This document shows, one piece after another, positions 5,883 to 34,516 of a stretch of 54,353 bases of DNA. The notes under the pieces are model-generated. The model ran no database searches. It saw only the letters and a program-made list of their open reading frames with translations, and was not told the origin of the DNA. Position numbers and translations under genes: made by a program. Source of the DNA: Actinomycetota bacterium (lineage in GTDB: Bacteria > Actinomycetota > Actinomycetes > Actinomycetales > Dermatophilaceae); the NCBI GenBank assembly GCA_020161845.1, contig JAIUNK010000032.1, positions 1 to 54,353 on the forward strand, written 5' to 3'. Position 1 is the first letter of the stretch. Each line of letters starts with the position of its first letter.

Positions 5883-5928
5883 CCTCGCCCAGCGCGAGGT
5901 GACCTGATCCGGGATCGTGGATCCCGAG

Positions 5929-5964: not shown

Positions 5965-6006
5965 GCCACATGGACAACAGCCGCGATCCGGCAAGGAGAG
6001 AAGGCG

Positions 6007-6735: not shown

Positions 6736-6880
6736 GGTGGCGGCCCCCCGACCCCGGCCGGCGCCGACCCGGCCCCCGACGTACGGAACAATTCTCCCGC
6801 CACGTCGGTTCCACCAGCGGTGATGCGCCGGCGGCCGGCGCGTCAGCAACGATCATCCGATAGGCAGCGAAGGAGGCGAG

Positions 6881-15376: not shown

Positions 15377-15437
15377 GGCGCCATCGTAGGCAGGGCCGGC
15401 CCGATCCCACCATGCCCGCAGCCGGGCCGACGTCGGG

Positions 15438-16214
15438 TCACAGGATCGGCACGCGCTCGCGGATGCCGGGGACGGTGTCCAGGTCGGCCTGCACGACCAA
15501 CAGGTCCTCCTGCTCGGCCAGCTGGCCGACCACCCGACCCAGCGGGTCGGCGAGCACGGAGCGGCCGATCCCCAGCGGTACGGCGCCCTCCGGTGGCCGC
15601 CAGGCCATGCCGCAGGCCAGCAGGTAGGCCTGGGCGTCCATGGCTCGGGCGCGGGTGAGCAGGTCCCACTGGTCGGCCTTGCCGGGTCCGTCGCCCCACG
15701 AGGCGGCCACCAGCACCAGGTGCGCGCCGGCCTGGCCGAGCTGGGTGAAGTGGGCGGCGAAGCGCAGGTCATAACAGGTGGCGAGCCCGACGGTGATGCC
15801 CTCGACCTGCGTGGTGACAATCGATGCCCCGGGCGCGACGGTGTCGGATTCGCGGCTGCCGAAGGCGTCGTAGAGGTGGATCTTGTCGTAGCTGATCTCG
15901 CCATCGGGCCCGGTCAGCAGGAGCGTGTTGTGCACCCGGCCGTCGGCCGCCGGGGTGAACATCCCGACGACCAGGGTGATCCCCAGCCGCGCGGCACACT
16001 CCCGGATGCCGGTGGCGAACGGCCCGTCGAGGTCCTGCGCGACGGCGGCCAGGCGCGTGCCGAAGCACGCCATGCTCGCCTCCGGGAAGACCACGATCCG
16101 GGCGCCACCTCCGGCGGCGCGTTCGGCCGCCGCCGTGATGATGGGCAGGTTGGCCGCCGGATCCGGCGTCGCGGAAATCTGGGCGGCGGCCAGGCGCAAG
16201 GGGGATGCTTTCAT
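15438..16214 (-). CDS. Carbon-nitrogen hydrolase (nitrilase superfamily amidase)
   Basis: A 258-aa enzyme with the complete Glu-Lys-Cys triad of the nitrilase superfamily: E45 (VVFPEASM), K111 (YDKIHLYDAFG) and C147 (GLATCYDLRF). These enzymes hydrolyse nonpeptide C-N bonds such as those of omega-amides, carbamoyl compounds or nitriles; the CYDLRF form is typical of omega-amidase-like members. The ATG at 16214 follows CAGGAGATCCGCG. The start faces the divergent GntR gene across 26 bp containing a TTGTATTACA site. Neighbouring transporter and DUF2848 genes suggest catabolism of an imported amide or ureide-like compound; the substrate is unknown. Confidence 0.92.
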   Translation of the reverse strand: MKASPLRLAAAQISATPDPAANLPIITAAAERAAGGGARIVVFPEASMACFGTRLAAVAQDLDGPFATGIRECAARLGITLVVGMFTPAADGRVHNTLLLTGPDGEISYDKIHLYDAFGSRESDTVAPGASIVTTQVEGITVGLATCYDLRFAAHFTQLGQAGAHLVLVAASWGDGPGKADQWDLLTRARAMDAQAYLLACGMAWRPPEGAVPLGIGRSVLADPLGRVVGQLAEQEDLLVVQADLDTVPGIRERVPIL

Positions 16215-16225
16215 CGCGGATCTCC

Positions 16226-16235
16226 TGTAATACAA
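16226..16235. promoter_or_regulatory. Putative GntR operator between amidase and GntR genes
   Basis: TTGTATTACA on the minus strand, in the 26-bp gap between the divergent amidase and GntR genes. It resembles the TTGTATACAG at 18285-18294 before the transporter gene and the palindromic sites of FCD-type GntR proteins. The site is too close to both starts for long leaders, so it would control both directions. The role is inferred. Confidence 0.5.
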
Positions 16236-16240
16236 GGGAT

Positions 16241-16870
16241 ATGCCGAATGTGCAGAGCGGACGCGACCGCGCCTACGAGTATCTTCGGGCCGAGTTGCTC
16301 TCCGATCCCGAACTGCCCGGCACATTCATCAACGAACAGGACGTCGCCGAGGCCGTGGGCGTCTCCCGAACCCCGGTCCGCGAGGCCCTGCTGATGCTCT
16401 CGGCCCAGCATCTGGTGCAGCTCGTGCCGCACCGGGGCGCATTCGTGCCCACCCTGACCGGGGCCCAGGCGAGCCAGGTCTTCGCGGTCCGCGAGATGAT
16501 CGAGCACTGGTGCGCCCGCGAGGCCATCGCCAGCGGGCGCGCACCGGTCGCGCAGATGCGCGCCGCGCTCGACGTACAGCGCCGTCGCAGCGGCGACGCC
16601 AAGGCGTTCATCGAGGCGGACCGGGACTTCCATGCGCTGCTGATCTCCTCGGCGGGGAACACGGTGCTGGAGGACATGTATGAGGGGCTGCGGGTGCGGC
16701 ACGTGTTGATCGGGGTGACCGCGGTACGCCGTCCGGGGGCGCGGATCGAGGACGTCCTGGACGAGCACCAGGCGATCGTCGACGCGTTGGCCGCGGCCGA
16801 CCCGGGCCGCGCCGAGGCCGTGATCACGGCCCATCTCGACGCGACCCGGCGGCGCCTGGTCGGCTCCTGA
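16241..16870 (+). CDS. GntR-family regulator (FCD type), divergent from amidase
   Basis: A 209-aa FadR-type regulator. The winged helix has RAYEYLRAELLSDPELPGTF and VAEAVGVSRTPVREALLML; the FCD domain has FAVREMIEHWCAREAIASG, ADRDFHALLISSAGN and the closing DEHQAIVDALAAADPGRAEA. The start at 16241 follows AAGGG closely; an upstream in-frame start at 16205 would overlap the amidase gene. As a local, divergently transcribed regulator beside an amidase and facing its transporter, it probably controls both through the TTGTA-type sites. The inducer is unknown. Confidence 0.9.
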   Translation: MPNVQSGRDRAYEYLRAELLSDPELPGTFINEQDVAEAVGVSRTPVREALLMLSAQHLVQLVPHRGAFVPTLTGAQASQVFAVREMIEHWCAREAIASGRAPVAQMRAALDVQRRRSGDAKAFIEADRDFHALLISSAGNTVLEDMYEGLRVRHVLIGVTAVRRPGARIEDVLDEHQAIVDALAAADPGRAEAVITAHLDATRRRLVGS

Positions 16871-16886
16871 GGCCCAACTGCGGGGC

Positions 16887-18245
16887 TTACTGGTCCTGGC
16901 TCTGGTCCAGCACATGGTCGACATCGTCGACGACGGCTCGGCCCATCGCGAGCCCGATGAGGGTGATGCCGCAGGCGACGGCGATATAGATCGCGATGAA
17001 CCATCCGCTGTGGCCGCGCGCGGGGTCGTAGGCGGCGTACATGGCCGGCGCGAGTCCGCCACCGAGCACTCCCGCGAACGTGTAGGCCAGCGAGCTGCCG
17101 GTGTAGCGCAGCCGGGCCGGGAACTGCTCGGCGATGTGCGCCGCCTGCGGGGCATACATGAAGCAGTGGATGACCAGGCCGACGATCACGCCGAACAGTG
17201 CCATCGCGAAGCTGCGGGTCTGCATCATCGCGACGAACACGAAGATCCACACCGCGCCGGCGACCGCGCCCATCGCGTAGAGCCGCCTGCGGTCGATCTT
17301 GTCCGAGACCCAGCCGGCGAACGGCATCATGAAGATCTGGATGAAGGCGGCCGTCATCGTGCAGGTCAGGGCCTGGGCATTGGTCAGCGCCCCGGCGCCC
17401 TTCTGCAGCCAGGTGATCACATAGACCGCGAAGAAGGCGTAGAGGATGTCCGGGCCGAAACGCACCAGGATGGCGCCGAGCAGTGCGCGCCCCTGGGTCC
17501 GGAAGACCTCGGTGACCGGCGCCTTGGGGACGTCGCCCTGCTGGGCGAGCGCCTGGAAGACCGGCGTTTCCTCCAGCTTGATCCGGATCCACAGGCCGAA
17601 GGCCACCAGCGCCAGCGACAGCAGGAAGGCGACCCGCCAGCCCCACGACAGGAACGCCTCGGGGGACAGGCCCGCCGCCAGCGCCAGCACCATGAGGTTG
17701 GCCAGGAAGCTGCCCAGCGGGACCCCGGTCTGCGCCGCCGAGGCCCACAGCCCGCGGGTGCCCGGGCGGGCGTACTCGCTCGACAGCAGCACCGCGCCGC
17801 CCCACTCGCCGCCGACCCCGACCCCCTGCAGGAAGCGCATCGCGACCAGCAGGATCGGGGCCCACAGGCCCGCGGAGCCGTACGTCGGGAGCAGACCGAT
17901 CGCCGCCGTGGCGAAGCCGATCAGCAGCAGCGTCCACACCAGCACTCGCTTGCGGCCGATCACGTCGCCGAGGCGGCCGAAGAAGATGCCGCCCACCGGG
18001 CGGGCGAGATATCCGGCGCCATAGGTCATGAACGCCTTGACCATGTCCGTGTTCGGATCCGAGCCGTCGAAGAACAGCTTGCTGAAGACCGTGCCGGTGA
18101 CGGCGCCGAACAGGGCGAAGTCATACCACTCCAGGGCGGTGCCCGAGAGGCTGGCCGCGAACGCCTTGTGCAGGCTGCGACGCTCCTGCGCGGTGTGCCC
18201 CTGTGTGGGCTGCGCTTGCGCAGGGTGGGCTGGGGGTGATGTCAC
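16887..18245 (-). CDS. MHS-family MFS metabolite:H+ symporter
   Basis: A 452-aa 12-helix MFS transporter of the metabolite:H+ symporter group (ShiA/KgtP/ProP-like). It has the N-terminal SGTALEWYDFALFG signature, the MFS loop GRLGDVIGRKRVLVWTLLL and the family segment GVGVGGEWGGAVLLSSEYA. MHS proteins import dicarboxylates, shikimate, osmolytes or aromatic acids with protons. The GTG start follows GGAAGGGAG. A TTGTATACAG palindrome lies 40 bp upstream of the start, linking it to the GntR gene that converges on it with a 16-bp gap. Confidence 0.93.
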   Translation of the reverse strand: MTSPPAHPAQAQPTQGHTAQERRSLHKAFAASLSGTALEWYDFALFGAVTGTVFSKLFFDGSDPNTDMVKAFMTYGAGYLARPVGGIFFGRLGDVIGRKRVLVWTLLLIGFATAAIGLLPTYGSAGLWAPILLVAMRFLQGVGVGGEWGGAVLLSSEYARPGTRGLWASAAQTGVPLGSFLANLMVLALAAGLSPEAFLSWGWRVAFLLSLALVAFGLWIRIKLEETPVFQALAQQGDVPKAPVTEVFRTQGRALLGAILVRFGPDILYAFFAVYVITWLQKGAGALTNAQALTCTMTAAFIQIFMMPFAGWVSDKIDRRRLYAMGAVAGAVWIFVFVAMMQTRSFAMALFGVIVGLVIHCFMYAPQAAHIAEQFPARLRYTGSSLAYTFAGVLGGGLAPAMYAAYDPARGHSGWFIAIYIAVACGITLIGLAMGRAVVDDVDHVLDQSQDQ

Positions 18246-18284
18246 GAACTCGGTCTCCCTTCCAAGGCGATGACGTCATACTCG

Positions 18285-18294
18285 TTGTATACAG
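18285..18294. promoter_or_regulatory. Putative GntR operator before the MHS transporter gene
   Basis: TTGTATACAG, with the perfect 8-bp palindrome TGTATACA, in the 125-bp gap between the divergent transporter and DUF2848 genes. It matches the TTGTATTACA at the amidase promoter, so the same GntR regulator could control transporter, DUF2848 and amidase genes. Confidence 0.5.
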
Positions 18295-18370
18295 TCGCTC
18301 AGGGCAATAGCCAGACGGGAATTGTGACGGAGCCACGCGCCCGACCTGGCGCGACACGAAAGGGGCCCAG

Positions 18371-19081
18371 ATGCTGCGTTTTCGGGTGATCCGCGCCACC
18401 GGCGCGAGGCAGGACGTGACAGTGCAGGTCAGCCGCGTCCTCAACGGGGGTTATGCCGGCCGGGACACCGCGCAGGTGCAGGCCCACATCGACGAGCTCG
18501 CCGAACTCGGCATACCCGGTCCGCAGCGCATCCCCACGATGTACCCGCTCTCGGACTACCTGGCGGTCCAGGGCGACCGGGTGGCCGTGCCGCACGGCCG
18601 CACCTCCGGGGAGGCCGAGTGGGCCCTCGTCGTGCCCGGCGACGCGACCGGCCCCGAGGACTACCTGGTCACCGCGGCCTGCGATCACACCGACCGCGCC
18701 CTGGAGCGGCACGGCGTCGCCTGGTCCAAGCAGTCCGCCCCCGACTTCCTCGGCGACGTCGCCTGGCGCTGGGGCGATGTGGCCCAGCGCTTCGACGGCT
18801 TCACGCTGCGCGCCTGGGTGCGCGGCGCGGCCGGTGCGGCCGGTGAGCTGCTGATTCAGGACGGTACGCCGGCGCAGCTGCTCGGTCCCGCCTATTGGAT
18901 CGACCGGCTGGGCGAGGCCGCTCTGCTGCAGCCGGGCACGGTGTTCATGAGCGGAACGATCCCGATGATCGCCGGGGTGGATCAGTTCGCCGCCGAATGG
19001 CGCGTCGAGCTGGCCGACGGGGCCGGCGCCGTCAGCCGGGTCGGGTATCGGGTCGAGCAGCTGCCGCCCGCCTGGGACTGA
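18371..19081 (+). CDS. DUF2848 family protein
   Basis: A 236-aa protein that I assign to DUF2848. The recognisable blocks are NGGYAGRDTAQVQAHIDELA, ITAACDHTDR-like CDHTDRALERHGVAWSKQ, DFLGDVAWRWGDVAQRFDGF and the late FMSGTIPMIAG. The family has no established reaction; the conserved CDHTDR and SKQ blocks and a GT segment resemble the metal-binding fumarylacetoacetate-hydrolase style, but that is only an impression. It diverges from the MHS transporter gene. It is probably the second enzyme of the amidase island, acting on the acid released by the amidase. Confidence 0.8.
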   Translation: MLRFRVIRATGARQDVTVQVSRVLNGGYAGRDTAQVQAHIDELAELGIPGPQRIPTMYPLSDYLAVQGDRVAVPHGRTSGEAEWALVVPGDATGPEDYLVTAACDHTDRALERHGVAWSKQSAPDFLGDVAWRWGDVAQRFDGFTLRAWVRGAAGAAGELLIQDGTPAQLLGPAYWIDRLGEAALLQPGTVFMSGTIPMIAGVDQFAAEWRVELADGAGAVSRVGYRVEQLPPAWD

Positions 19082-21322: not shown

Positions 21323-22738
21323 GTGGTCACGGGACCGGTCGGGACATCGCGGCGCATCCGCGAACTGTGGGTCGATGCCCGCTTCGGCATCGCCGGGGAC
21401 ATGCTCCTGGCGGCGTTGCTCGACGCCGGGGCGGACCTGGCCGCCGTACGCCGTGCGGTCGCCGCGGTGATCGGGGACGCGGTGTCGCTCAACACCAGCG
21501 AGGTACGCCGTGCCGGGCAGCGAGCCACCCTTGTCGACGTCCGGCTGACCCGGCCCGACCAGCCACACCGGGCCTGGGCCGAGATCCGGGCCCTCCTGCA
21601 GCACGCCGACCTGGCCCCGCGGGTGCGGGAGGGCGCGCTGGCGACGTTTGAGGCGTTGGCCGCCGCGGAGAGCCGGGTGCACGGGGTGCCCGCCGACGAG
21701 GTGCACTTCCACGAGGTCGGCGCCTGGGACTCGATCGCCGACATCGTCGGGGTGTGCGCCGCGCTGGCGGACCTCGACGTCGGGACGGTGTCCTGCACCG
21801 ACATCGTGGTCGGCGAGGGCACCGTCGCCGGGGCGCACGGTCTGCTTCCGGTGCCGCCCCCGGCCGTCCTGGAGCTCGTGGCGGGCAGCCGGCTGAGTCT
21901 GCGTGCCCTGCCGACCGGGGCGCCGGACGCTGCGGCCGAGCCGGTCGGGGAGCTCGCCACGCCCACTGGCGTGGCGCTGCTCGCGGCGTTGACCGACGGC
22001 CGCAGCCGCGCCGGCGTGCCGGCCCTCGCCTCGGCCGGTGCGGTCGGCGTCGGGGCCGGCCAGAAGGACATCCCCGGCTGGGCCAACGTCGTCCGCGTGG
22101 TGCTGGGGCCGGCGGCACCCGAGGTGGGGGAACCGGCCGGCCCCGGTGACGAGCTGCGCGTGGACTGGCTCACCCAGCTCAGCGCCAATGTCGACGACCT
22201 GGACCCGCGGGCCTGGCCGGGGGTCCTGACTGCGCTGTTGACGGCCGGCGCGGTCGACGCCTGGCTGACGCCCATCCTGATGAAGAAGGGCCGACCTGGG
22301 CACACGGTCTCGGCCCTGGTCGCCGCGTCGCCGCAGGGTGCCGCGACGGACGCCGTACGGCGTGCGCTGCTGGCCCACACCAGCACCCTCGGGGTGCGGG
22401 AGGCGACGTACCGGCGAGCCGCCCTGCCCCGCGCGTTCGTGGCCGTCCCGGTCCGGCTCGGATCTGAGGCGGCCGGATCCGAGGGGTACGGGTCCGAGGC
22501 GCACGGGTCCGAGGCGCCTGGGTCCGGGACGACCCAGGTCGCGTCGGGTGAGGTACGCATCAAGGTCGGCTACCAGCACGGTCGGATCGTCCAGGCGACC
22601 CCGGAGTTCGAGGACTGCGCGACCCTGGCCGCCGCGTCGGGCCACCCCGTGGCGCAGGTGCTTGCCGCAGCAAGCGCTGCCGCCGATGCGGCGGGCCTGC
22701 GCCCGGGGCAACCCTTCGTCGCCGACGACGGTGGCTGA
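21323..22738 (+). CDS. larC: LarC: nickel-insertion protein for the nickel-pincer nucleotide
   Basis: A 471-aa LarC homologue, the CTP-dependent cyclometallase that inserts nickel into the pyridinium-bisthiocarboxylate mononucleotide to make the LarA cofactor. Recognisable blocks are the N-terminal WVDARFGIAGDMLLAALLDA, DEVHFHEVGAWDSIADIVG, ELATPTGVALLAAL, and the later LSANVDDLDPRAWPGVL and TPILMKKGRPGHTVSAL. It is a single full-length frame, not split. Residues 379-403 hold five copies of a pentapeptide (LGSEA, AGSEG, YGSEA, HGSEA, PGSGT), an unusual insert. The GTG start follows the kinase stop by 9 bp. It converges on larB. Confidence 0.93.
   Translation: MVTGPVGTSRRIRELWVDARFGIAGDMLLAALLDAGADLAAVRRAVAAVIGDAVSLNTSEVRRAGQRATLVDVRLTRPDQPHRAWAEIRALLQHADLAPRVREGALATFEALAAAESRVHGVPADEVHFHEVGAWDSIADIVGVCAALADLDVGTVSCTDIVVGEGTVAGAHGLLPVPPPAVLELVAGSRLSLRALPTGAPDAAAEPVGELATPTGVALLAALTDGRSRAGVPALASAGAVGVGAGQKDIPGWANVVRVVLGPAAPEVGEPAGPGDELRVDWLTQLSANVDDLDPRAWPGVLTALLTAGAVDAWLTPILMKKGRPGHTVSALVAASPQGAATDAVRRALLAHTSTLGVREATYRRAALPRAFVAVPVRLGSEAAGSEGYGSEAHGSEAPGSGTTQVASGEVRIKVGYQHGRIVQATPEFEDCATLAAASGHPVAQVLAAASAAADAAGLRPGQPFVADDGG
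22457..22531 (+). repeat. Five tandem 15-bp units inside larC
   Basis: Units of 15 bp, in frame, of the form nnnGGGTCCGAGGCG, giving the pentapeptide xGSEA. Units 3 and 4 differ only at their first base. The copy number can easily vary by slippage without shifting the frame. The insert lies in a surface loop before the last beta-rich part of LarC. Confidence 0.85.
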
Positions 22739-22740
22739 GG

Positions 22741-23424
22741 TCAGCTCGCGGCGATCTGGGCGGCGGCGTGTCCGGCGCCGTACCCGTTGTCGATGTTGAC
22801 CACCACGACCCCCGGCGCGCAGGAGTTGAGCATCGCCAGCAGCGGGGCGAGGCCACCGAACGCGGCGCCGTACCCGACCGAGGTCGGCACGGCGATGACC
22901 GGGGCCGCGATCAGCCCGGCCACGACGCTGGGCAGCGCGCCGTCCATCCCGGCCACGACCACCACCACGCGAGCGGCCCGGAGCAGGTCCAGGCGGCCCA
23001 GCACGCGGTGCAGCCCCGCGACGCCGACGTCCATGACCAGCTCGGCCCGGCGACCGAGGTAGCGCGCGGTGAGCAGCGCCTCCCGCGCCACGGGGGCGTC
23101 CGAGGTGCCGGCAGCGGCCACCACGACCAGCCCGCCGGTGGGCTCCGGGAGGTCGGCGGGCCAGGCGAGTAGGCGGGCGGTCGCGTCGTACGCGGCGCCC
23201 GGGAGTTCTTCGAGGACGGCGGCCGCCCGCGCGGGATCGGCCCGGGTGAACAGGGTCACCGGCGGCCTCCCGGGGGCCGTCGCGCCGCGGTCGCGACAGG
23301 CGGCGGCGATCGCGCGCAGCTGGTCGAGCGACTTCCCCTCGCAGTAGACGGCCTCCGGATAGCCCCGGCGAGCCGCCCGGTCGTGGTCCAGGACGACGTC
23401 GGCCAGGCCGTGGTTTTCAGTCAT
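22741..23424 (-). CDS. larB: LarB: P2CMN synthase (nicotinate adenine dinucleotide carboxylase/hydrolase)
   Basis: A 227-aa LarB, the first enzyme of nickel-pincer nucleotide synthesis. It carboxylates and hydrolyses nicotinic acid adenine dinucleotide to pyridinium-3,5-biscarboxylate mononucleotide. It has the PurE-like C-terminal half: VVVAGMDGALPSVVAGLIAA, PVIAVPTSVGYGAAFGG and a closing VVNIDNGYGAGHAAA. The N-terminal DHDRAARRGYPEAVYCEGKS is typical of the family. Its start overlaps the larE stop by 8 nt, so larE and larB are one transcript. It ends 2 bp from the larC stop on the other strand. Confidence 0.95.
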   Translation of the reverse strand: MTENHGLADVVLDHDRAARRGYPEAVYCEGKSLDQLRAIAAACRDRGATAPGRPPVTLFTRADPARAAAVLEELPGAAYDATARLLAWPADLPEPTGGLVVVAAAGTSDAPVAREALLTARYLGRRAELVMDVGVAGLHRVLGRLDLLRAARVVVVVAGMDGALPSVVAGLIAAPVIAVPTSVGYGAAFGGLAPLLAMLNSCAPGVVVVNIDNGYGAGHAAAQIAAS

Positions 23425-24244
23425 CGGCCGACAGCACGCTCAGGGTGAAGGCGCCCGACTGGATCCCGGCGAGGTCGAGCGTCACATAGCGGAATCCAGC
23501 CGCCGCGATCCCGGTCCGCAGCCGCTCGCGCAGGCCCGGCGCGGCGGCCCGGGCGAGGTCCGCCGGCTCGAGCTCGACGCGGGCGATGTCGCCGTGGTGC
23601 CGCACCCGCCCGTCCCCGAAGCCCAGCTCGCGCAGCACCCGCTCGGCCTGGGCGATCTGCGCCAGCTTGGTGGGGGTGACCTCGCTGTGGTGCGGGATGC
23701 GCGAGGCCAGGCAGGGCGCGGCGGGCTTGTCCGCGCACGGCAGGCCCAGCTGGCGGGCGACGGCGCGGACGTCGGCCTTGGTCAGCTGGGCCGCCGCCAG
23801 CGGGCGCAGGACGTGATGGGTCGTCGCGGCGCGCGAGCCGGGCCGGTCGAGCCGTCGTACGTCGTCCGCATTCTCGCCGTAGGCGACCGCGTCCAACCGG
23901 TGCGCCGCGACGACCTCGTCGCCGATGCGGGTGAACAGCTCGTCCTTGCAGTGGAAGCAGCGGTCGGGTCCGTTGGCGACGTAGCCGGGGTTCTCGCCCT
24001 CGTGGGTCTCGATCTCCACGACGGGCACCCCGATGAGCCGAGCCACCTGGTGCGCGCTGGCGCGCTCGTCCGGGGCGAGGCTGGGGGAGACCCCGAGGAT
24101 GCCCATGACCTGATCCCGGCCGAGCAGCCGTGCCGCGAGGGCCAGCAGCACCGCCGAATCCACCCCGCCGGAGTAGGCGACGCCCAGCCGCCGGATGCCG
24201 GCCAACTCCCGGCCGACGGCCCGCTGGGCCTGGTCCAGCATCAT
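23417..24244 (-). CDS. larE: LarE: sulfur transferase for the nickel-pincer nucleotide
   Basis: A 275-aa ATP-dependent sulfur-inserting enzyme. The PP-loop is YSGGVDSAVLLAL. The motif RCFHCKDELF (C96, C99) and C178 in PCLASRIPHHSEVT are the family cysteines; C178 corresponds to the residue that donates its sulfur in the sacrificial-cysteine LarE. Two rounds turn the two carboxylates of P2CMN into thiocarboxylates. The ATG follows CCAGGAGGCC. It lies 15 nt after gnd and overlaps larB, giving an operon gnd-larE-larB. Whether this LarE is sacrificial or iron-sulfur dependent cannot be settled by reading alone. Confidence 0.94.
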   Translation of the reverse strand: MMLDQAQRAVGRELAGIRRLGVAYSGGVDSAVLLALAARLLGRDQVMGILGVSPSLAPDERASAHQVARLIGVPVVEIETHEGENPGYVANGPDRCFHCKDELFTRIGDEVVAAHRLDAVAYGENADDVRRLDRPGSRAATTHHVLRPLAAAQLTKADVRAVARQLGLPCADKPAAPCLASRIPHHSEVTPTKLAQIAQAERVLRELGFGDGRVRHHGDIARVELEPADLARAAAPGLRERLRTGIAAAGFRYVTLDLAGIQSGAFTLSVLSADD

Positions 24245-24259
24245 CTGGCCTCCTGGGGG

Positions 24260-25774
24260 TCAGTGCGCGGCGTCGTCCGTGCGGATCTGCGAGCGGTCTC
24301 CCGACCACAGGGTGTGGTAGGAGCCCTCGGCGTCGATACGACGGTAGGTGTGCGCCCCGAAATAGTCCCGCAGCGCCTGGGTGAGCCCGGCGTTCAGGCG
24401 GGGGGCGCGGGCCTGGTCGTAGTGCGCCAACGCGCCGCAGAATCCCGGAATGGGCACCCCGGCCGTCGTCGCCGCCGCGATCACCCGCCGCCAAGCGCCT
24501 TGGCAGCGGGCCAACTCGGCCTTGATCGACGGGGCCTCCAGCAGGGTGATGAGCTGGCCGGCGGCATATTCCGAACGGATCCGCTCCAGCAGCTTGGCCC
24601 GGATGATGCACCCGTCCCGCCAGATCTTGGCCACCTCGGCGACGTCGATGTCCCAGCCGTAGTCCTGCGCCGCGGTGCGGATCAGGTCCAGGCCCTGGGC
24701 ATAGGCGACCACCTTGCTGGCCCACAGCGCGTCGCGGACGTCATCGACGAAGCCCTGCCGTGCCGCGGGGTCCGTGAGGTCGCTCAACGTGCCGTCCGGA
24801 CCGTCCAGGGCGGCCTGGGCGGCCGCGCGCAGCTGCGGGTGGGAGGAGATCGCGCGGGCGAAGACGGCCTCGGCGATGGCATTGACCGGTACGCCGAGAG
24901 AGAGCGCGGACTGCACCGTCCAGGTGCCGGTGCCCTTCATTCCGGCCGCGTCCACGATCACGTCGACCAGCGGCTTTCCGGTGCTGGCGTCCTTGGCGCG
25001 GAGCACCTCCGAGGTGATCTCGATCAGATAGGAATCCAGGTCACCGGTGTTCCACTGCGCGAACGCCTCGGCCATCTCGTCGGCGGACAGCCCGGCGGCC
25101 TGGAGCAACTGGTAGGCCTCGCCGATGAACTGCATGTCGGCGTATTCGATGCCGTTGTGCACCATCTTGACGAAGTGGCCGGCCCCGTCCGTGCCGATGT
25201 AGGTGCAACACGGCTCGTCACCCACGTGGGCCGAGATGTCCTCCAGGATCGGGCCGAGCGCCGCGTAGGACTCCGGCGAGCCGCCCGGCATGATCGACGG
25301 GCCCTCCAGGGCGCCGACGTCCCCGCCGGAGATGCCGGCGCCGACGAAGTGCAGACCGTGCTCGCGCAGCGCCTGCTCGCGGCGGCGGGTGTCCTGGTAG
25401 TAGGCGTTGCCGCCGTCGACCACGATGTCGCCCTCCGCCAGCAGCGGCACCAGTTCGTCGATGACGGCGTCGGTGCCCTGCCCGGCCTGCACCATGATGA
25501 TGATCCGGCGGGGCGCCTCCAGCGCGGCGACGAAGTCCTCGATGCGCTGCGCCGGGACGAAGCTGCCCTCGTGGCCGTGGTCGCGGACCACCTCTTCGGT
25601 CTTGGCGAACGTGCGGTTGTACAGGGCCACGCGATACCCGTGCCGGGCGATGTTGCGGGCCAGGCTGCTGCCCATGACGGCCATGCCCACGACGCCGACC
25701 TGGGCGCTGCCGCGCGCCGCGGGATCGTCGGCCGGCACGACCGCGGGGGTGGTGCCGGTTCGTTCGGTGCTCAT
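24260..25774 (-). CDS. gnd: 6-phosphogluconate dehydrogenase (decarboxylating)
   Basis: A 504-aa 6PGDH that oxidises 6-phosphogluconate to ribulose 5-phosphate and CO2 with NADP. The nucleotide site is VGVVGMAVMGSSLARNIARH; the substrate signature is FVGAGISGGDVGALEGPSIM; the catalytic lysine is in HFVKMVHNGIEYADMQFIGE; the C-terminal AHTYRRIDAEGSYHTLW is intact. The start at 25774 follows GAGGAGCGCCCC. A 25-residue leader before the Rossmann fold is extra. It heads the operon gnd-larE-larB, an unexpected partner for cofactor genes, and has a perfect palindrome 77 bp upstream. Confidence 0.97.
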   Translation of the reverse strand: MSTERTGTTPAVVPADDPAARGSAQVGVVGMAVMGSSLARNIARHGYRVALYNRTFAKTEEVVRDHGHEGSFVPAQRIEDFVAALEAPRRIIIMVQAGQGTDAVIDELVPLLAEGDIVVDGGNAYYQDTRRREQALREHGLHFVGAGISGGDVGALEGPSIMPGGSPESYAALGPILEDISAHVGDEPCCTYIGTDGAGHFVKMVHNGIEYADMQFIGEAYQLLQAAGLSADEMAEAFAQWNTGDLDSYLIEITSEVLRAKDASTGKPLVDVIVDAAGMKGTGTWTVQSALSLGVPVNAIAEAVFARAISSHPQLRAAAQAALDGPDGTLSDLTDPAARQGFVDDVRDALWASKVVAYAQGLDLIRTAAQDYGWDIDVAEVAKIWRDGCIIRAKLLERIRSEYAAGQLITLLEAPSIKAELARCQGAWRRVIAAATTAGVPIPGFCGALAHYDQARAPRLNAGLTQALRDYFGAHTYRRIDAEGSYHTLWSGDRSQIRTDDAAH

Positions 25775-25850
25775 GGGGCGCTCCTCACTTCTCGGGGGGC
25801 CCGGACCGGGCCGGGTTGGTCTGTCCCCCATTCACCCTCGCGGCGGCCGG

Positions 25851-25870
25851 GCCGGCAACCGGTTGCCGGC
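25851..25870. promoter_or_regulatory. Perfect 20-bp palindrome between gnd and the L,D-transpeptidase gene
   Basis: GCCGGCAACCGGTTGCCGGC is an exact dyad with a central CG, the symmetry seen in operators of LacI-family sugar regulators (core AACCGGTT). It lies 77 bp upstream of gnd and 126 bp upstream of the divergent gene. No LacI-type gene is in the window, so the binding protein would be encoded elsewhere. It could also form a cruciform or RNA hairpin. Confidence 0.6.
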
Positions 25871-25995
25871 TGTTTCCCGACGCACTCACTGCTCCTACCG
25901 GCGATTCATGGTGCAGCGGCCGATGATCGACGACATCGGGACGCGCTCGTGCGCCCCGGACCCCGTCGTTTCGGTTCGTCTTCCCTGGAGTCCCT

Positions 25996-26781
25996 ATGTC
26001 ATCCACACCCACCACGCAGCCGCGAAATCGTCCGTTCGCGACGCCGCTGATCCTCGTCCTGGCTGTCCTCCTCGGCGCGTTCCTCGGCATGTTCCTCGGG
26101 GCGGGATCGGCGTCCGCCCGCGTCGTCGGCCCCGACCTGCGGCCGGGTCCCGGCGCCGAGGCCAGGTCGCTGCCGCGCTCGGCTCCGCTGGCCCGGCAGC
26201 TGGGCCTCGGGCAGGCCCTTCCGGTGCCGTACGCCGGGACGTCGCGGCAGGTCATCACCGTACGGGCTGACTGTGCGAGCTGCTCGTGGGCGACCCTGCA
26301 GGCCTGGGACGGACTCGGCGAGGGCACCTTCCTGCCGGTGACGGTCCCGATCCGGGCCCGCATCGGTGCGGCCGGGGTCGGCGTCGCCGCCGAGGGGTCC
26401 ACGAAGACCCCGCTGGGCACGTGGGATCTGCCCGGAGCGTTCGGGCTGCAGCCCAACCCGGGGACGGCATTGCCCTACTTCGTCGCCGGCCCCCTGGACT
26501 ATTGGGACGGGCGCTCGGGCGCTGCGACGTACAACACCCACGTGCGCAGCAGCGTGCCCATCGTCGGAGAGCACCTGCTGTCGGTGGGTTGGGTCTACAA
26601 CTACGCCGTGGTGATGGGGGTCAACCCGAACCGCACGCCGTACGGCGGCAGCGCGTTCTTCCTGCACGTCACCGACGGCCGTCCGACGGCCGGCTGCGTG
26701 GCGATCGACCAGGGCAGCCTCGTGGCGATCCTGCGCTGGCTGGATCCGGCCGCGCGCCCGCAGATGGTCGTCGCGCTCTAG
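25996..26781 (+). CDS. Exported L,D-transpeptidase (YkuD) domain protein
   Basis: A 261-aa protein with a signal peptide or N-terminal anchor (hydrophobic 16-37, then ASA). The catalytic segment FFLHVTDGRPTAGCVAID has H224 and C234 in the HxxxxxxTxGCV arrangement of YkuD L,D-transpeptidases. These enzymes make 3-3 peptidoglycan crosslinks or attach proteins; many actinobacterial homologues of this plain form have unknown substrates. No LysM or Ig-like domain precedes the catalytic domain. It is divergent from gnd and converges on larA, with both stop codons inside one CTAG (26778-26781). It is probably unrelated to the lar genes. Confidence 0.85.
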   Translation: MSSTPTTQPRNRPFATPLILVLAVLLGAFLGMFLGAGSASARVVGPDLRPGPGAEARSLPRSAPLARQLGLGQALPVPYAGTSRQVITVRADCASCSWATLQAWDGLGEGTFLPVTVPIRARIGAAGVGVAAEGSTKTPLGTWDLPGAFGLQPNPGTALPYFVAGPLDYWDGRSGAATYNTHVRSSVPIVGEHLLSVGWVYNYAVVMGVNPNRTPYGGSAFFLHVTDGRPTAGCVAIDQGSLVAILRWLDPAARPQMVVAL

Positions 26782-28076
26782 CCGCGCAGCCGGTAGAGCA
26801 CCTCGCCGGCGTTGGGGATGACGACGGTTCCGGGCTCCTTGGCCAAGACCTCGAGATCGACCGACGCGGGGTCGAGATAGCCCAGGTTGATCGACTCGCA
26901 CACCTCGCGCGGGATCTGGGTGGCCAGCGTGACCCGGACCCGCAGCGTCTCTTGACCGGTCGCGGCGTCGTACGTGCCCTGTCCGCGTAGGTGGGTGGAG
27001 TGCGCCAGGACGCCCCAGTGGATGTCCTTGAACCGATCCCACTGGGCGGTGAAGTAGTCGCGGCAGTGGTAGCCGATCTCGTAGATCTCGTGATGCGTCT
27101 CGCTGACCTCGGTGACGTGCGGGGCGTAGATGACCACCTCGCCGCCGTCGGCCACCGCCGGCTCCAGCTTGTAAAAGCCTTTGGCGGCGGTCCAGATGTC
27201 GTCGTACCGGGTCGGCATGCACGAGATGACCCGCTGGTACGGCGCGTCGACGTACGTGACGTGCGTCTGCGCCGCGATCGCCGCCGTCGCCGCCCACGCG
27301 TCCTCGCAGGTGCCGAACGCCGCCGCCTCCAGCTCGCCGGTGCCGGACTCGACGACGCAGCACAGCGCCAGCCGCCGGGTGGGGATGAGGGCCGCACCCT
27401 CGTTGATCATCGCCCGGACGGGGGTGATGCCGGTGGTGCCGATGATCTCGTACGACGTGATGAGGGCGCCGACCCAGTGGGTCATGTCGATGAATTCTTG
27501 GGACGCGACGCCGGGGATGAAGTACTTGTTTCCGCCGGAGATCCCGACCACCTCGTGCGGGAAGACCGGCCCCACCACGATCGCCACGTCGGACTCCACC
27601 ACGTGCCGGTTGATCAGGATGTCGGCGCCGATCGACAACCGGCCCTCGGACAGCTCCGCGATGCGCTCGCCCTCGATCCGGCCGACCTTGACCAGCATCG
27701 CCGGGTCGGCCCACTCGTGATTGACGACGGTGAGTCCGGGATAGGCGTCGGCCAGCGTCGCGGGCTGCGGGGTCCCGTCGGCGTCCGTGCCCCCCACGCC
27801 CAGTAGCCGATCGATCTCGTCGGGCTCCAGGTAGGAATGGGTGCCCAGCGCGATCACCGCGGTCAGCGACGCCACGCGTGGGGCGAGATGCCGGTGCAGG
27901 GTCCCCACCAGCAACGGCAGGGGGCAGGACCGGGTGCCGTCGGGGATGACCAGGGTCACGCGCAGCCCGTCCAGGTCCACACCGGCGACGGCCCGCGCCA
28001 CGAACTCGTCCAGCTCCCGCGCGGACACGTGCTGATGGGGCCCGCCAATGAGGTCGCAGGTCACGTGGGTCGTCAT
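26778..28076 (-). CDS. larA: LarA-family nickel-dependent hydroxyacid racemase/epimerase
   Basis: A 432-aa LarA homologue. H174, K184 and H200 (FPHEVVGISGGNKYFIPGV, then MTHWVGA) fall exactly at the numbers of the Lactobacillus plantarum enzyme, where K184 holds the pincer nucleotide, H200 binds nickel and H174 is a catalytic base. The N-terminal PDGTRSCPLP and GTH80 fit the substrate-binding segment and the second catalytic histidine. The protein should racemise or epimerise a 2-hydroxyacid. It is divergent from a KDG-kinase-like gene and close to gnd-larE-larB, pointing to sugar acids rather than lactate. No larD lactate channel is present. The ATG at 28076 begins a clean N-terminus. Confidence 0.93.
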   Translation of the reverse strand: MTTHVTCDLIGGPHQHVSARELDEFVARAVAGVDLDGLRVTLVIPDGTRSCPLPLLVGTLHRHLAPRVASLTAVIALGTHSYLEPDEIDRLLGVGGTDADGTPQPATLADAYPGLTVVNHEWADPAMLVKVGRIEGERIAELSEGRLSIGADILINRHVVESDVAIVVGPVFPHEVVGISGGNKYFIPGVASQEFIDMTHWVGALITSYEIIGTTGITPVRAMINEGAALIPTRRLALCCVVESGTGELEAAAFGTCEDAWAATAAIAAQTHVTYVDAPYQRVISCMPTRYDDIWTAAKGFYKLEPAVADGGEVVIYAPHVTEVSETHHEIYEIGYHCRDYFTAQWDRFKDIHWGVLAHSTHLRGQGTYDAATGQETLRVRVTLATQIPREVCESINLGYLDPASVDLEVLAKEPGTVVIPNAGEVLYRLRG

Positions 28077-28154
28077 GGCCGCCAGTGAAGCAACGGGCGC
28101 TCCACCCGTCAAAGCCGTCGTCATGGCCACGGTGTGGATGCTGGAGGGTTGCCC

Positions 28155-28299
28155 ATGACGCATCGCGCCGAGCGAGTTCCTCGCCGGGCCGCTGGAGGAA
28201 CGGGTGGGTGCCGTGTTGGAGTATCTGGGGGTCACCGACGAGGCGACCGCCGTCCTGGTCGGACACCAGGCTCGCGAATGGGAAGGAACAGCACTGTGA
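28155..28299 (+). CDS. Small coupled ORF with an apparent frameshift
   Basis: An ATG at 28155 has a fine ribosome binding site (GGAGGGTTGCCC). After two codons the coding-like frame is the next one: from 28162 it reads IAPSEFLAGPLEERVGAVLE and on to VLVGHQAREWEGTAL, with third positions almost all G or C in its first two thirds. It ends in TGA overlapping the GTG of the kinase gene (GTGA). Reading straight on from the ATG instead runs in frame into the kinase but gives an arginine-rich, shadow-like leader. One extra base near 28161, a programmed shift or a start further in (GTG 28204) would each explain it. The family is not recognised. Confidence 0.35.
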
Positions 28300-29405
28300 A
28301 ACTGCGGGAGAACGCCCGGTGGGCGATGGTCGTGCCGACCAGCATGGGCATCCGGATCGCCCCCGAACTCGGCCAGCCGGTGCACACCGCCGACCGGTTC
28401 CTGATGCAGGTGACCTCGGCGGAGACCAACGTGGCGAGCGTGCCCGCGGCGCTCGGGATGCCGGTCAAGGTGCTCACGGCCTTCGTGGCCGACAGCCCCA
28501 TCTCGGCCATGATCAAGGCCAACCTGCGCTCTCGGGGGATGACCTTCGAGGGTCCGGACCTGCCCCAGGGTGACGCCTGGGGGCTGCGGCACCAGTTCAA
28601 CATCGCCGACGCCGGCTACGGTGCCCGTGGCCCCCGGGTGTGGAACGACCGCGCCGGCGAGGTCGGTCGGGAGCTGTCCGTCGACCAGTTCGACCTCGAA
28701 CGCCTCTTCGGCGCCGAGGGCGTCCAGATCTTGCACATGTCCGGGCTGGTGGCCGCGATCTCGCCGAAGACCAGCGAGTTCTGCGTCGAGCTCGCCAAGG
28801 CCGCGACACGGCACGGCACCGCGGTGTCGATGGATATGAATTACCGCGCCTCGTTCTGGCGGGGCCGCGAGGAGGAACTGGCCGCGGCGTTCCACACCAT
28901 CGCCGAGCACTGCGACATCCTCTACGGCAACGAGGAGGACTTCCAGCTCTGCCTCGGCATCGACGGCCCCGCGGCCGGCGGCTCGGACATCGACGCCCAG
29001 ATCGAGGAGTTCAAGGGCATGATCGGCCGGATCCGGGCGGCCTATCCCCGCGCGCGGTACATCGGCACCTCGCTGCGCGAGGTCGTCTCCGCCAACCACC
29101 ACAGGTGGGGGCTGGTGCTGTGGGGCGCGGGGGAGAGTGCCGGACCCGGGGAGCCGGCTGACGCGGGGGAGTACGCCGTGTGCCCGCTGCGCGACATCGG
29201 CGTCCTGGATCGGATCGGCGGCGGCGACGGATCGGTGGGTGGCGTGCTGTACGGCGTACTGTCCGGCTGGTCGGTCCAGGAATGCGCCCAATTCGGTTGG
29301 GCGACGGGCTCGCTGGCGGCGACATCCGTCTACGACTACGGCCAACCGGCCGACGAGGAGCAGGTCTGGTCGATCTGGGTGGGCAACGCGCGCGTCAAGC
29401 GCTGA
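28296..29405 (+). CDS. PfkB-family sugar kinase, 2-keto-3-deoxygluconate kinase-like
   Basis: A 369-aa ribokinase-fold protein. The N-terminal block SAETNVASVPAALGMPVKVL stands for the usual GGAEANVA motif. The middle has DMNYRASFWRG, close to the NYRxKLW of KDG kinases, and NEEDFQLCLG. The ATP-site motif is DRIGGGDGSVGGVLYGVLSG with catalytic base D311; the DRxGGGD form is a KDG-kinase trait, though GS replaces the usual AF or SF. It would phosphorylate 2-keto-3-deoxygluconate to KDPG. The GTG start overlaps a small ORF and follows GGAAGGAAC. Divergent from larA, it suggests an aldonate pathway. The N-terminus may be longer if the ATG at 28155 is used. Confidence 0.82.
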   Translation: MKLRENARWAMVVPTSMGIRIAPELGQPVHTADRFLMQVTSAETNVASVPAALGMPVKVLTAFVADSPISAMIKANLRSRGMTFEGPDLPQGDAWGLRHQFNIADAGYGARGPRVWNDRAGEVGRELSVDQFDLERLFGAEGVQILHMSGLVAAISPKTSEFCVELAKAATRHGTAVSMDMNYRASFWRGREEELAAAFHTIAEHCDILYGNEEDFQLCLGIDGPAAGGSDIDAQIEEFKGMIGRIRAAYPRARYIGTSLREVVSANHHRWGLVLWGAGESAGPGEPADAGEYAVCPLRDIGVLDRIGGGDGSVGGVLYGVLSGWSVQECAQFGWATGSLAATSVYDYGQPADEEQVWSIWVGNARVKR

Positions 29406-30276: not shown

Positions 30277-30507
30277 ATGCCGTCGATCGGATCGTACGAA
30301 GCCAAGACCCACCTGCCGCGTCTCCTCGACGAGGTCGCGGGAGGGTCGACGTACACGATCACCAAGCACGGACGCCCGGTGGCGCGCCTCGTTGGGCTGC
30401 GGCCCGTGATCGCACAAGACGACCTCGTCGCGGCGTTTGCCGCCGCCCGGGCCGGAAAGCGCCTGGGGATGCCCGTGCGGCAGGCCATCGAAGAGGGCCG
30501 CAGATGA
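30277..30507 (+). CDS. Phd/YefM-family antitoxin
   Basis: A 76-aa antitoxin. The N-terminal SIGSYEAKTHLPRLLDEVAG and TITKHGRPVARLVGL are the classic Phd/YefM fold, which binds DNA as a dimer. The C-terminal helix (FAAARAGKRLGMPVRQAIEE) would wrap the PIN toxin. The stop overlaps the toxin start as ATGA. This is a different antitoxin fold from the one at 2002, although both partners are PIN toxins. Chromosomal pairs of this type are common in actinobacteria. Confidence 0.9.
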   Translation: MPSIGSYEAKTHLPRLLDEVAGGSTYTITKHGRPVARLVGLRPVIAQDDLVAAFAAARAGKRLGMPVRQAIEEGRR

Positions 30508-30905
30508 TCCTGGTCATCGACGCCTCCGTGACGATGGCCTGGTGCTTCGAGGACGAGCACAGCGCCGAAGCCGATCGGCTGCTCGGCTTGGTCGTCGCCG
30601 ATGGCGCGATCACGCCGGCGCTGTGGGAGGCCGAGGTCAGCAACGTGCTCGTCGGCGCGGAGCGGCGGGGGCGCACGACGCCCGCTGACAGCGCGCGCTT
30701 CCTTGCCTTGCTCGACGCGCTGCCGATTGAGGCTGCCGATCATGTCCCGTCGAAGGACCAGGTCCTGGGGGCGGCACGGGAGCACGGGCTGTCCGCGTGC
30801 GACGCGACGTACTTAGTGACCGCCATGCTGCACGGAGCAGCGCTTGCGACCTTCGACGAAAGACTCGCCGCCGCGGCGCGCTCCGCCGGTGTTCGCCTCG
30901 CCTGA
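30504..30905 (+). CDS. vapC: PIN-domain ribonuclease toxin (VapC-like)
   Basis: A 133-aa PIN toxin. The metal-binding acids are D6 (VIDASVTMAW), E44 (LWEAEVSNVL), D100 (SACDATYLVTA) and D118 (ATFDERLA), so the active site is complete. It is probably an RNA-cleaving toxin neutralised by the overlapping Phd-type antitoxin. Length is normal. It shows only family-level similarity to the VapC at 2235. It converges on the chemoreceptor gene with a 2-bp gap. Confidence 0.92.
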   Translation: MILVIDASVTMAWCFEDEHSAEADRLLGLVVADGAITPALWEAEVSNVLVGAERRGRTTPADSARFLALLDALPIEAADHVPSKDQVLGAAREHGLSACDATYLVTAMLHGAALATFDERLAAAARSAGVRLA

Positions 30906-32494: not shown

Positions 32495-32737
32495 GCTCGA
32501 CCTCCAGGTCGCGACAATGACTGGCTCCCAATTCGCCTGGTGACGAGCGTTTCTGAGGGCGGCGCCCCGGTCAGGTCCGGCGGCCTGGCTCCCGCCGACC
32601 TCCCCGGCCTGCCGGCCGCGCCGGCCGCGCCGGCCTCACCCCCCACGGTCGGGCAACGAGCGGCAACCGCTAGAGCCGCCCGGGGCCTGCGCATTTGACT
32701 GGTGAGCACCACGCACGAGAAGCCCCAAGGAGCCACC

Positions 32738-34501
32738 ATGGTCGATCTGTCCGCCGCACCATTCCATCTCGACGCGGACGCGATCCGCTGGGTCGAGGAG
32801 ACCATCGCGGGAATGACCGACGAGGAGATGATCGGCCAGCTTTTCGTCAACATGGGCAGCTCGCGGGATCCGGACTACCTGTGCGGCGTCCTCGACGAGT
32901 TCCATATCGCCGCCGTGCGGTACAACCCGGGGACCGCGCAGGAGGTCTACGAGCAGAACAGGGTCCTGCAGGAGCACAGCACGATCCCCATGCTCGTCGC
33001 CGCCAACACCGAGGCCGGCGGCAACGGCGCGTGCACCGATGGCACCTACATCGGCTGGCAGGTCAAGGTCGCCGCGACCCAGGACCCGGAATTGGCCTAT
33101 CAGCTGGGCCGGATCAGCGGCATCGAGGCCGCCGCCATCGGCTGCAACTGGAGCTTCGCCCCGATCGTCGACATCAACCGGAACTGGCGCAACCCGATCA
33201 TCTCGGTGCGCGCGTGGGGCAGCGATCCGCAGCAGGTGCTCGACTACTCCCTGGCCTATATGCGCGGGATCCGCGAATCCGGGATCGCGCCCGCCGCCAA
33301 ACACTTCCCCGGCGACGGCATCGACGAGCGGGACCAGCACCTGTCCTCCGCGCCGAACTGGCTGTCGACGGCGGACTGGGATGCCACCTTCGGCGCCGTC
33401 TACACCGGCCTGATCGAGGCCGGGTTGCCCAGCATCATGGCGGGTCACATCGCGCTCCCGGCGTACCAGAAGCACTTCAACCCGGCCATGAAGGATGACG
33501 AGATCCTGCCCGCCACCTTGAGCAGGGAGATCATCACCGACCTCCTTCGCGGCAAGCTCGGCTTCAACGGCCTGGTCGTCACCGATGCGAGCCACATGGT
33601 CGGGATGACCGGGGTGATGGCACGGCGCGACATCCTGCCCACGGCCATCGAGGCGGGCTGTGATCTCTTCCTGTTCTTCAACGACCCCGCGGAGGACTTC
33701 GCCTGGATGATGCAGGGCTGGAAGTCCGGCAAGCTCTCCGACGCGCGCCTGCACGACGCGCTGCGTCGCACCCTGGGGATGAAGGCCATGCTCGGTCTGC
33801 ACCGCACGGCCAAGACCGAGATTCTGCGCCCCAAGGAGGAGGCGATGGCGGTGATCGGGGCCGCGGAGCACCGGGCGGTCGCTCAACGCGTCGCCGACCT
33901 CGGGATCACGCTGGTCAAGAACACCCAGCAGGCGTTGCCGATGTCGCCGCGCAAGTACCCCAGGGTTCTGGTCGTGCCCGTCGGGGGGCCACCCAACCCC
34001 ATGGCCATCGGCATTCACGGCGCCGGCGCTCATCCCGCCGACAAGCTCACGGCTCGGTTGCGGGCCCGTGGGTACGACGCCACCCGCTACCAGACGGTGC
34101 TGGACCGGACCAAGGGCAAGAGCCCGGAGGAGGTGGCCGCCGTGGTGATGGGCGCCTACGCGGGCAAGTTGCCGATCTCCGCCCTGACCGACAACTACGA
34201 TCTGGTCCTCTCCGTGGGCAACGTCAACGGGCTGATGCAGCCCGTTGAGCGGGTCTCTTGGCCCGCGACCAAGGGCACCTACGACATTCCCTGGTATGTC
34301 CACGAGATCCCCACGATCGCGATCTCGTGTGCCAGCCCGCACATGTTGCCGGACATCCCGCAGGTCAAGACCTATATCAACTGCTATGACGACAAGGACG
34401 TCACCCTGGATGTGCTGATCGACAAGCTCGAAGGCCGATCGCCGTTCAAGGGCGTACCCACCACCGATGTGTTCGCCGGCCTGGCGGACACGCACTGCTG
34501 A
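32738..34501 (+). CDS. Glycoside hydrolase family 3 protein (beta-N-acetylhexosaminidase-like)
   Basis: A 587-aa GH3 enzyme without signal peptide, hence probably cytosolic. The nucleophile is D283 in LVVTDASHM. The NagZ-type loop is KHFPGDGIDERDQH (188-201), which keeps the D-x-H dyad (D199, H201) but has GDG where the family usually has GHG. A second alpha/beta domain follows, ending near residue 580. It should cleave a terminal beta-linked N-acetylhexosamine or related sugar. The ATG at 32738 is preferred because CCAAGGAGCCACC precedes it; a GTG at 32702 lies upstream in frame. The HAD phosphatase gene follows after 15 nt, so the pair is one operon. Confidence 0.88.
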   Translation: MVDLSAAPFHLDADAIRWVEETIAGMTDEEMIGQLFVNMGSSRDPDYLCGVLDEFHIAAVRYNPGTAQEVYEQNRVLQEHSTIPMLVAANTEAGGNGACTDGTYIGWQVKVAATQDPELAYQLGRISGIEAAAIGCNWSFAPIVDINRNWRNPIISVRAWGSDPQQVLDYSLAYMRGIRESGIAPAAKHFPGDGIDERDQHLSSAPNWLSTADWDATFGAVYTGLIEAGLPSIMAGHIALPAYQKHFNPAMKDDEILPATLSREIITDLLRGKLGFNGLVVTDASHMVGMTGVMARRDILPTAIEAGCDLFLFFNDPAEDFAWMMQGWKSGKLSDARLHDALRRTLGMKAMLGLHRTAKTEILRPKEEAMAVIGAAEHRAVAQRVADLGITLVKNTQQALPMSPRKYPRVLVVPVGGPPNPMAIGIHGAGAHPADKLTARLRARGYDATRYQTVLDRTKGKSPEEVAAVVMGAYAGKLPISALTDNYDLVLSVGNVNGLMQPVERVSWPATKGTYDIPWYVHEIPTIAISCASPHMLPDIPQVKTYINCYDDKDVTLDVLIDKLEGRSPFKGVPTTDVFAGLADTHC

Positions 34502-34516
34502 GGAGTGCGGACCAGC

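Follow-up and report, generated by a model that had tools for sequence, protein, structure and literature searches.

The 54,353-nucleotide stretch analysed here, referred to as the window, is a contig (JAIUNK010000032.1, assembly GCA_020161845.1) of an actinobacterium of the family Dermatophilaceae. It carries the gene for a LarA-superfamily protein, which appears to be a GntE-type aldonate epimerase, together with the genes for its nickel-pincer cofactor, a 6-phosphogluconate dehydrogenase (Gnd) and a PfkB-family kinase. larC (21323-22738, plus strand) encodes the nickel insertion protein, with LarC1 and LarC2 in one frame (TIGR00299 175 bits, cut-off 90; NF052512 111 bits, cut-off 50; PF01969 380 bits), and 2 nt separate it from the convergent larB (22741-23424, minus strand), the gene for the carboxylase/hydrolase of nickel-pincer cofactor synthesis (NF033503 267.5 bits, cut-off 175). 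larB is overlapped by 8 nt by larE (23417-24244, minus strand), encoding the ATP-dependent sulfur transferase (TIGR00268 269.6 bits, cut-off 150), which in turn starts 15 nt after the end of a long, NADP-type gnd (24260-25831, more likely 24260-25774, minus strand; TIGR00873 638 bits, cut-off 426.7). A putative LacI-type operator, the perfect palindrome CGGCAACCGGTTGCCG (25853-25868), lies before gnd-larE-larB. Further on are larA (26778-28076, minus strand, ATG at 28076), encoding 432 aa (PF09861 70.9 bits, cut-off 23.3), and, divergent from it, the kinase gene (about 28278-29405, plus strand; PF00294 63.5 bits, cut-off 25.8), whose product belongs to a branch resembling 2-keto-3-deoxygluconate (KDG) kinases and whose N-terminus is unsure (28278, 28296 or 28326).

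An earlier account made from the letters alone (the sequence-only reading) had placed these six genes and described the convergence of larC on larB and larE, the larE spacing and overlap, and the divergent kinase gene; the coordinates agree and the model matches lie over their cut-offs. Its description of the cofactor set as complete also holds, since larB, larC and larE are all in the window above NCBIfam cut-offs. It had missed a 261-aa gene on the plus strand (25996-26781) between gnd and larA, which leaves larA outside the gnd-larE-larB unit. This gene overlaps the 3' end of larA by 4 nt, and its product has no Pfam or NCBIfam match; the C-terminal end, SAFFLHVTDGRPTAGCVAI, is reminiscent of an L,D-transpeptidase active site.

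Family of LarA and type of LarE

Sequence, profile and predicted fold all point to 4NAR as the nearest solved structure to LarA; this is Thermotoga maritima GntE2 (LarAH20), an assayed D-gluconate 2-epimerase. When LarA is aligned to the PDB members, its residues D46, R49, H80, H174, K184, H200 and K299, invariant in 26 aligned sequences, fill the superfamily catalytic and cofactor positions D72, R75, H108, H174, K184, H200 and K298; H174, K184 and H200 thus stand at exactly the numbers that the sequence-only reading had assigned. The GntE signature has been described as E, V, A and H at LarA positions 175, 176, 358 and 359 (PMC11770544). The protein carries E175, V176, A358 and H359, and this set is likewise invariant in the 26 sequences, with positions 358 and 359 assigned by way of 4nar instead of a direct alignment to L. 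plantarum LarA. In 4nar, A-H stands opposite A358-H359, and the loop reads E-S. The lactate-racemase residues F175, F176 and W358 are absent, E, V and A standing instead, and the Ni_dep_LarA model NF033504 gives 57.6 bits at a cut-off of 460. In the tree, from which the sequence L026 was excluded, LarA falls with GntE2 and apart from the racemases of lactate and malate. These observations give good support to LarA being a GntE-type aldonate C2-epimerase and not a lactate racemase, as far as the family is concerned, and moderate support to mannonate/gluconate as its substrate.

The best NCBIfam match of LarA is the hexonate epimerase group-18 model, NF052594, despite a score below the cut-off; since it is still the best match, LarA probably belongs to another group of the same kind. 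Another LarA group of the same order (L023, L024 and L025) has PHEVLGFANHNK in place of the PHEVVGISGGNK loop. A single-histidine LarA subgroup is marked by Asn replacing H174 (PMC12611868); membership in it can be ruled out, as H174 is present and invariant.

LarE contains C96-x-x-C99 and C178, a CXXC-C motif which a study on T. maritima LarE links to a [4Fe-4S] cluster (PMC9283937). The protein is therefore probably of the [4Fe-4S] type and not of the single-Cys sacrificial type, and the NCBIfam label "sacrificial" is probably inapplicable because these cysteines are present; the idea of a sacrificial sulfur donor was dropped for the same misfit. A C-x-x-C followed by a later Cys was observed in 20 of the 20 LarE sequences listed.

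Neighbours, operator-like site and phyletic pattern

The surroundings of larA were compared in 35 loci, the window included, after L049 and L050 had been dropped as duplicates of L029 and L030. The uronate isomerase UxaC was found in 19 of them, the fructuronate reductase family UxuB in 18, Gnd in 14, an FGGY gluconokinase-like protein in 9, a GPH glucuronide-type transporter in 6, a beta-glucuronidase of family GH2 in 5, TRAP in 4, LacI in 19, LarB in 21, LarE in 20 and LarC in 17. With one representative scanned for each, the NCBIfam models for glucuronate isomerase, beta-glucuronidase and the GPH and TRAP subfamilies were over cut-off, and fructuronate reductase and gluconokinase were the best matches of their representatives, yet below cut-off. 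In 14 loci, uxaC and larA adjoin each other in divergent orientation with 2-236 bp between them, and a same-strand gnd stands directly upstream of larE in 8 of the 35 including the window, which is more than chance (both counts depend on a simple gene caller; it overlooked larE in L037, where tblastn recovered the gene). Neither a grouping with the lactate racemases nor an unconserved gene order, the two outcomes open to computation that the sequence-only reading had named against itself, was found.

Individual loci extend this picture. In Nostocoides sp. F2B08 (G022), the run includes a transketolase, over cut-off, with an FGGY gluconokinase-like gene and a GH2 gene within about 8 kb of larE. 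An Acidobacteria contig (L062) has larA flanked by gnd and by a short-chain dehydrogenase/reductase (SDR) gene, whose best model is D-mannonate oxidoreductase, just under cut-off, and on a contig labelled Deltaproteobacteria (L063) larA is followed by an FGGY kinase gene and gnd. The LarA of the window is 77-81% identical to that of the UxaC clusters L030, L031, L051, L054, L055 and L057. Taken together, the neighbours in relatives imply a route of glucuronate to fructuronate, mannonate, gluconate, 6-phosphogluconate and ribulose-5-phosphate.

Relatives have a palindrome near TGGCAACCGGTTGCCA in the promoter regions of uxaC-larA, GH2-lacI and GPH. A first enumeration of palindromes had returned mostly GC-rich noise alongside this useful motif. 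With up to 3 mismatches allowed, the consensus has 15 matches in 639,840 bases (14 in relatives, 1 in the window); five base-shuffled sets gave 1-8. A matrix was trained on 12 sites from 8 loci, the window excluded; two of the 14 relatives' matches went unused, in L042 (overlapping another) and L059 (upstream of an unrelated gene). Its best match in the window is CGGCAACCGGTTGCCG, just before gnd, with 20.5 bits, the runner-up in the 54 kb reaching 10.1. Among 27 non-training loci including the window, the best match lies between -300 and +60 relative to a cluster gene start in 12, with 2.5 expected. The ten highest-scoring matrix matches of the window all lie outside the larA-PfkB gap.

The phyletic pattern was drawn from 117 related genomes, 20 of which were counted as carriers of a GntE-type larA. 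These are what remains of 25 LarA matches after G083, G100 and G115 (27-32% identity, other LarA group), G108 (E 1.6e-4) and G098 (a fragment) had been dropped. UxaC is present in 17 of the 20 carriers against 19 of the 97 others (Fisher P 4.5e-8). UxuA matches occur in 7 of the 117 genomes and in none of the 20 carriers, the genome of the window included. Within the window's own family (71 genomes), a short Gnd-type match is found in at least 61, and a long Gnd over the TIGR00873 cut-off is sporadic, occurring in 12 of 14 larA carriers against 15 of 57 others (P 7e-5) and lying near larA in 8 of those 12 carriers. The gnd of the window is of the long type, and the same genome has another Gnd match, of the short type, on contig C24. 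In the dropped genome G098, a nearly complete assembly of two contigs, fragments of larA and uxaC adjoin each other and uxuB is short (L073 about 5245-7055, G098:C1), which gives a decayed-looking copy of the cluster.

Proposed route and competing explanations

The evidence is best accommodated by a LarA-superfamily enzyme of a GntE-type branch that comes with its own cofactor genes and would lead mannonate through gluconate into the pentose phosphates; a probability of about 0.62 was assigned to this reading. LarB, LarE and LarC would make the nickel-pincer nucleotide, and K184 and H200 of LarA would hold it. H80 and H174 would alternate as acid and base, following the acid-base mechanism published for LarA, so that a hydride would leave C2 of the aldonate and return on the opposite face, interconverting D-mannonate and D-gluconate. 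Gluconate would then be phosphorylated to 6-phosphogluconate, which the dedicated long-type Gnd would oxidise and decarboxylate to ribulose-5-phosphate, in a direction and under a regulation through the palindrome before gnd that are likewise only proposed. In relatives, mannonate would come from glucuronate via UxaC and UxuB, and the nickel enzyme would thus replace the usual exit through mannonate dehydratase, KDG and 2-keto-3-deoxy-6-phosphogluconate (KDPG).

That exit was one of the two outlets suggested in the sequence-only reading, in which a sugar-acid epimerase was joined to a KDG or a pentose-phosphate route. The evidence supports the pentose-phosphate half and lends no support to the KDG half. 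A search of the window's genome for mannonate dehydratase gave no UxuA match, in line with the carriers as a whole, and a search for KDPG aldolase gave one family match, which lies apart from the lar genes on another contig (C72). It belongs there to an operon of galactonate type that also encodes a galactonate dehydratase (over cut-off) and a PfkB kinase of the KDG/2-keto-3-deoxygalactonate type. An apparent sugar ABC transporter belongs to the same operon, as read from its sequence and not scanned. The ILVD/EDD family has a single match in the genome, presumably ilvD. Since the C72 operon has its own KDG-type kinase, the PfkB of the window is not the only candidate KDG kinase. The KDG branch was rejected because none of the 20 carriers has a UxuA match.

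For the kinase step, the window offers the divergent PfkB as a candidate. The best PDB matches of this PfkB are 4gm6 and the KDG kinase 2afb. The gene occupies the spot where many relatives have uxaC, and a 64.5% identical PfkB stands beside uxaC-larA in Aestuariimicrobium kwangyangense (L057); the best-scoring match across the 116 other relatives is 34% identical, with 164 bits against 854. From its place beside larA and from the gene in L057, we infer that this PfkB would phosphorylate gluconate or mannonate, and it is the likeliest candidate to stand in for the missing kinase.

Several observations weigh against the proposed route or against parts of it. The identity of LarA to GntE2 is about 31%, so its substrate could differ; its score against NF052594 is 131 bits at a cut-off of 500; and the forks around GntE2 are open in the tree, with the other LarA group (L023-L025) on the same side. 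The related enzyme GntE1 has a KM for mannonate of 120 mM, and its discoverers doubted that mannonate is the native substrate (PMC7583248). As to the operator-like site, the best matrix match lies away from a cluster promoter in 15 of the 27 non-training loci, and 26 of 100 shuffled versions of the window contain the consensus, within 3 mismatches, one or more times, so that the weight of the match comes from its position and score and not from its presence; no LacI gene was found in the window, near the gnd palindrome or elsewhere, and no genome-wide search for a LacI orthologue was made. Ten of the 35 larA loci lack UxaC, UxuB, GntK, GH2, GPH and Gnd nearby, several of them on short contigs. 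The carriers G019 and G057 are also without UxaC, and in G050, G057, G064 and G070 (4 of the 12 family carriers with a long Gnd) the long gnd is on another contig or far from larA. The mutual exclusion of larA and UxuA among UxaC carriers (UxuA in 0 of 17 with larA against 5 of 19 without, P 0.047) is weak, the genomes being related, and is no general rule, since T. maritima has both gntE and uxuA.

To these must be added the steps that were not found, in their known forms, in the genome of the window (G000). Neither UxaC nor UxuA has a match there, and the UxuB family has none, with no search made for an SDR-type mannonate oxidoreductase or UxaE. No P-loop gluconokinase is over cut-off (best TIGR01313 score 24.8 bits, cut-off 113.75), and the top FGGY match to the cluster kinase reaches 28% identity. 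The full route is therefore unreadable from this genome, and the word "complete" fits the cofactor set, the sugar-acid pathway being incomplete here.

One extension of the kinase proposal would make larA and the PfkB gene a self-standing module, in which the PfkB, as a new substrate class within the KDG-kinase-like branch, would phosphorylate mannonate (or gluconate) and LarA would epimerise before or after it, leading mannonate to the pentose phosphates; this is possible, although unlikely. A little less probable still is a route in which phosphorylation comes first, with the PfkB as mannonate kinase and LarA as a 6-phosphomannonate 2-epimerase feeding 6-phosphogluconate to Gnd. Both activities were shown by Valk and co-workers in extracts of Lactobacillus suebicus, where the genes are unassigned (PMC6978723), and the genome of the window has no recognised gluconokinase, yet a PfkB adjoins larA. 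GntE2, however, acts on unphosphorylated mannonate (PMC7583248), 9 of the 35 loci retain an FGGY gluconokinase-like gene that could itself phosphorylate either acid, and the named best structural match of the PfkB is a KDG kinase. If this order of steps were correct, the larA-PfkB pair would provide candidate genes for the L. suebicus activities.

Comparably doubtful is the epimerisation of some other sugar acid, such as a mannonate isomer or glucarate/mannarate, in which case the uronate context of relatives would not be shared by the window. The unmatched UxaC, UxuB and UxuA and the published doubt over mannonate for GntE1 (PMC7583248) speak for it, but both the 77-81% identity to the LarAs of UxaC clusters and the operator-like site before gnd shared with relatives argue for the same substrate. 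It is quite improbable that the locus is a remnant, in which the uronate genes have been lost and larA-gnd-larEBC serve no pathway. UxaC, UxuB and gluconokinases were not found in the genome, there is no larA match in three genomes of the same genus, and the copy in G098 looks decayed; the lar genes, gnd and PfkB of the window, however, are full-length open frames, every catalytic residue of LarA is kept, and the palindrome before gnd is perfect. A racemase of lactate or another short 2-hydroxyacid, to which superfamily membership, the conserved catalytic residues and a D-2-hydroxyacid dehydrogenase gene 17 kb off might point, is very improbable and was rejected on the pocket residues, the NCBIfam models, and the tree and fold that put LarA with GntE2.

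Wider window and known systems

Beyond the kinase gene, a NagZ-like GH3 glycoside hydrolase (32702-34501, plus strand; PF00933) is followed by a HAD hydrolase (34505-35440, plus strand; PF13419). A 59% identical counterpart of the GH3 abuts uxuB-uxaC in L030 (Nostocoides), with the order kept, and the HAD protein has 74% and 55% identical counterparts beside the larA/uxuB cluster of L030 and near larA-gnd in L062. Because these counterparts adjoin uronate/larA clusters, the wider region (32702-35440) is suggested to belong to the same metabolism, and the pair could handle amino-sugar-glucuronate saccharides. The GH3 protein keeps a D-x-H dyad, KHFPGDGIDERDQH.

The absence of larD and lactate permease claimed in the sequence-only reading was borne out, as the Pfam scan, covering 46 of the 52 called genes of the window, found no MIP/LarD-like channel and no lactate permease family. 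Its claim that a lactate dehydrogenase is lacking was partly right: a gene of the D-2-hydroxyacid dehydrogenase family, specificity unassigned, lies at 8546-9520 (minus strand), next to an aminotransferase gene. Two PIN-domain (VapC-like) genes are found at 2235-2627 and 30504-30905. At 14591-19081, two FCD-type GntR regulators flank a carbon-nitrogen hydrolase, a metabolite:H+ symporter-like protein and a DUF2848 protein, in what looks like a carboxylate or amide catabolic unit. A contaminant contig was ruled out, as the tetranucleotide correlation of the window is 0.92 with a 20-kb stretch of another contig of its own genome against at most 0.83 for 14 stretches from other genomes; five short stretches of its own genome (3-4 kb) gave 0.63-0.76.

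If the proposed route is true, several actinobacterial families would break down glucuronate with a nickel enzyme in place of the exit through mannonate dehydratase. The carbon would then yield pentose phosphates and NADPH instead of KDPG, pyruvate and glyceraldehyde phosphate, and growth on glucuronides would be nickel-dependent in these bacteria. It would also furnish a natural metabolic context for actinobacterial GntE-type enzymes, the true substrate of GntE1 having been left open, and the version in the window, without the usual kinase, points to a new kinase. A literature search, with subscription papers mostly outside its reach, found no paper on this route in actinobacteria.

Among known systems, L. 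plantarum lactate racemase shares the superfamily, the cofactor residues and larB, larC and larE with the locus, and differs in its pocket residues, its tree position and its larD, which was not seen in the window. The Ashwell (isomerase) pathway (UxaC, UxuB, UxuA, KdgK, KdgA) has its upper steps in common with the clusters of relatives, in which the UxuA step was not found and LarA and Gnd would take its place. The L. suebicus route likewise bypasses UxuA, KdgK and KdgA in connecting the isomerase pathway with 6-phosphogluconate and Gnd, but unlike the route proposed here it phosphorylates before epimerising, with genes unassigned (PMC6978723). Corynebacterium glutamicum GntE1 (LarAH19), compared by description only, is also actinobacterial, acts on mannonate/gluconate and lies in a context of uronic acid genes (PMC7583248).

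The closest likeness is to T. maritima GntE2 and the operon gnd-uxaRED-gntEK, which share with the locus the LarA fold, the catalytic set, E175, the pocket A-H and the linkage of gnd to the epimerase gene. Rodionova and co-workers are reported to have put forward, in 2012, a Thermotoga route from mannonate through gluconate and 6-phosphogluconate to ribulose-5-phosphate (cited in PMC6978723 and PMC7583248), and the route proposed here runs alike into the pentose phosphates. In Thermotoga, gntK and uxuA are kept and UxaE/UxaD and a GntR-family regulator are used, whereas here the cofactor genes follow gnd, a LacI-type palindrome precedes it and uxaC, uxuB and gntK were not found in the genome. 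The system is thus a variant of the Thermotoga proposal, with unusual neighbours.

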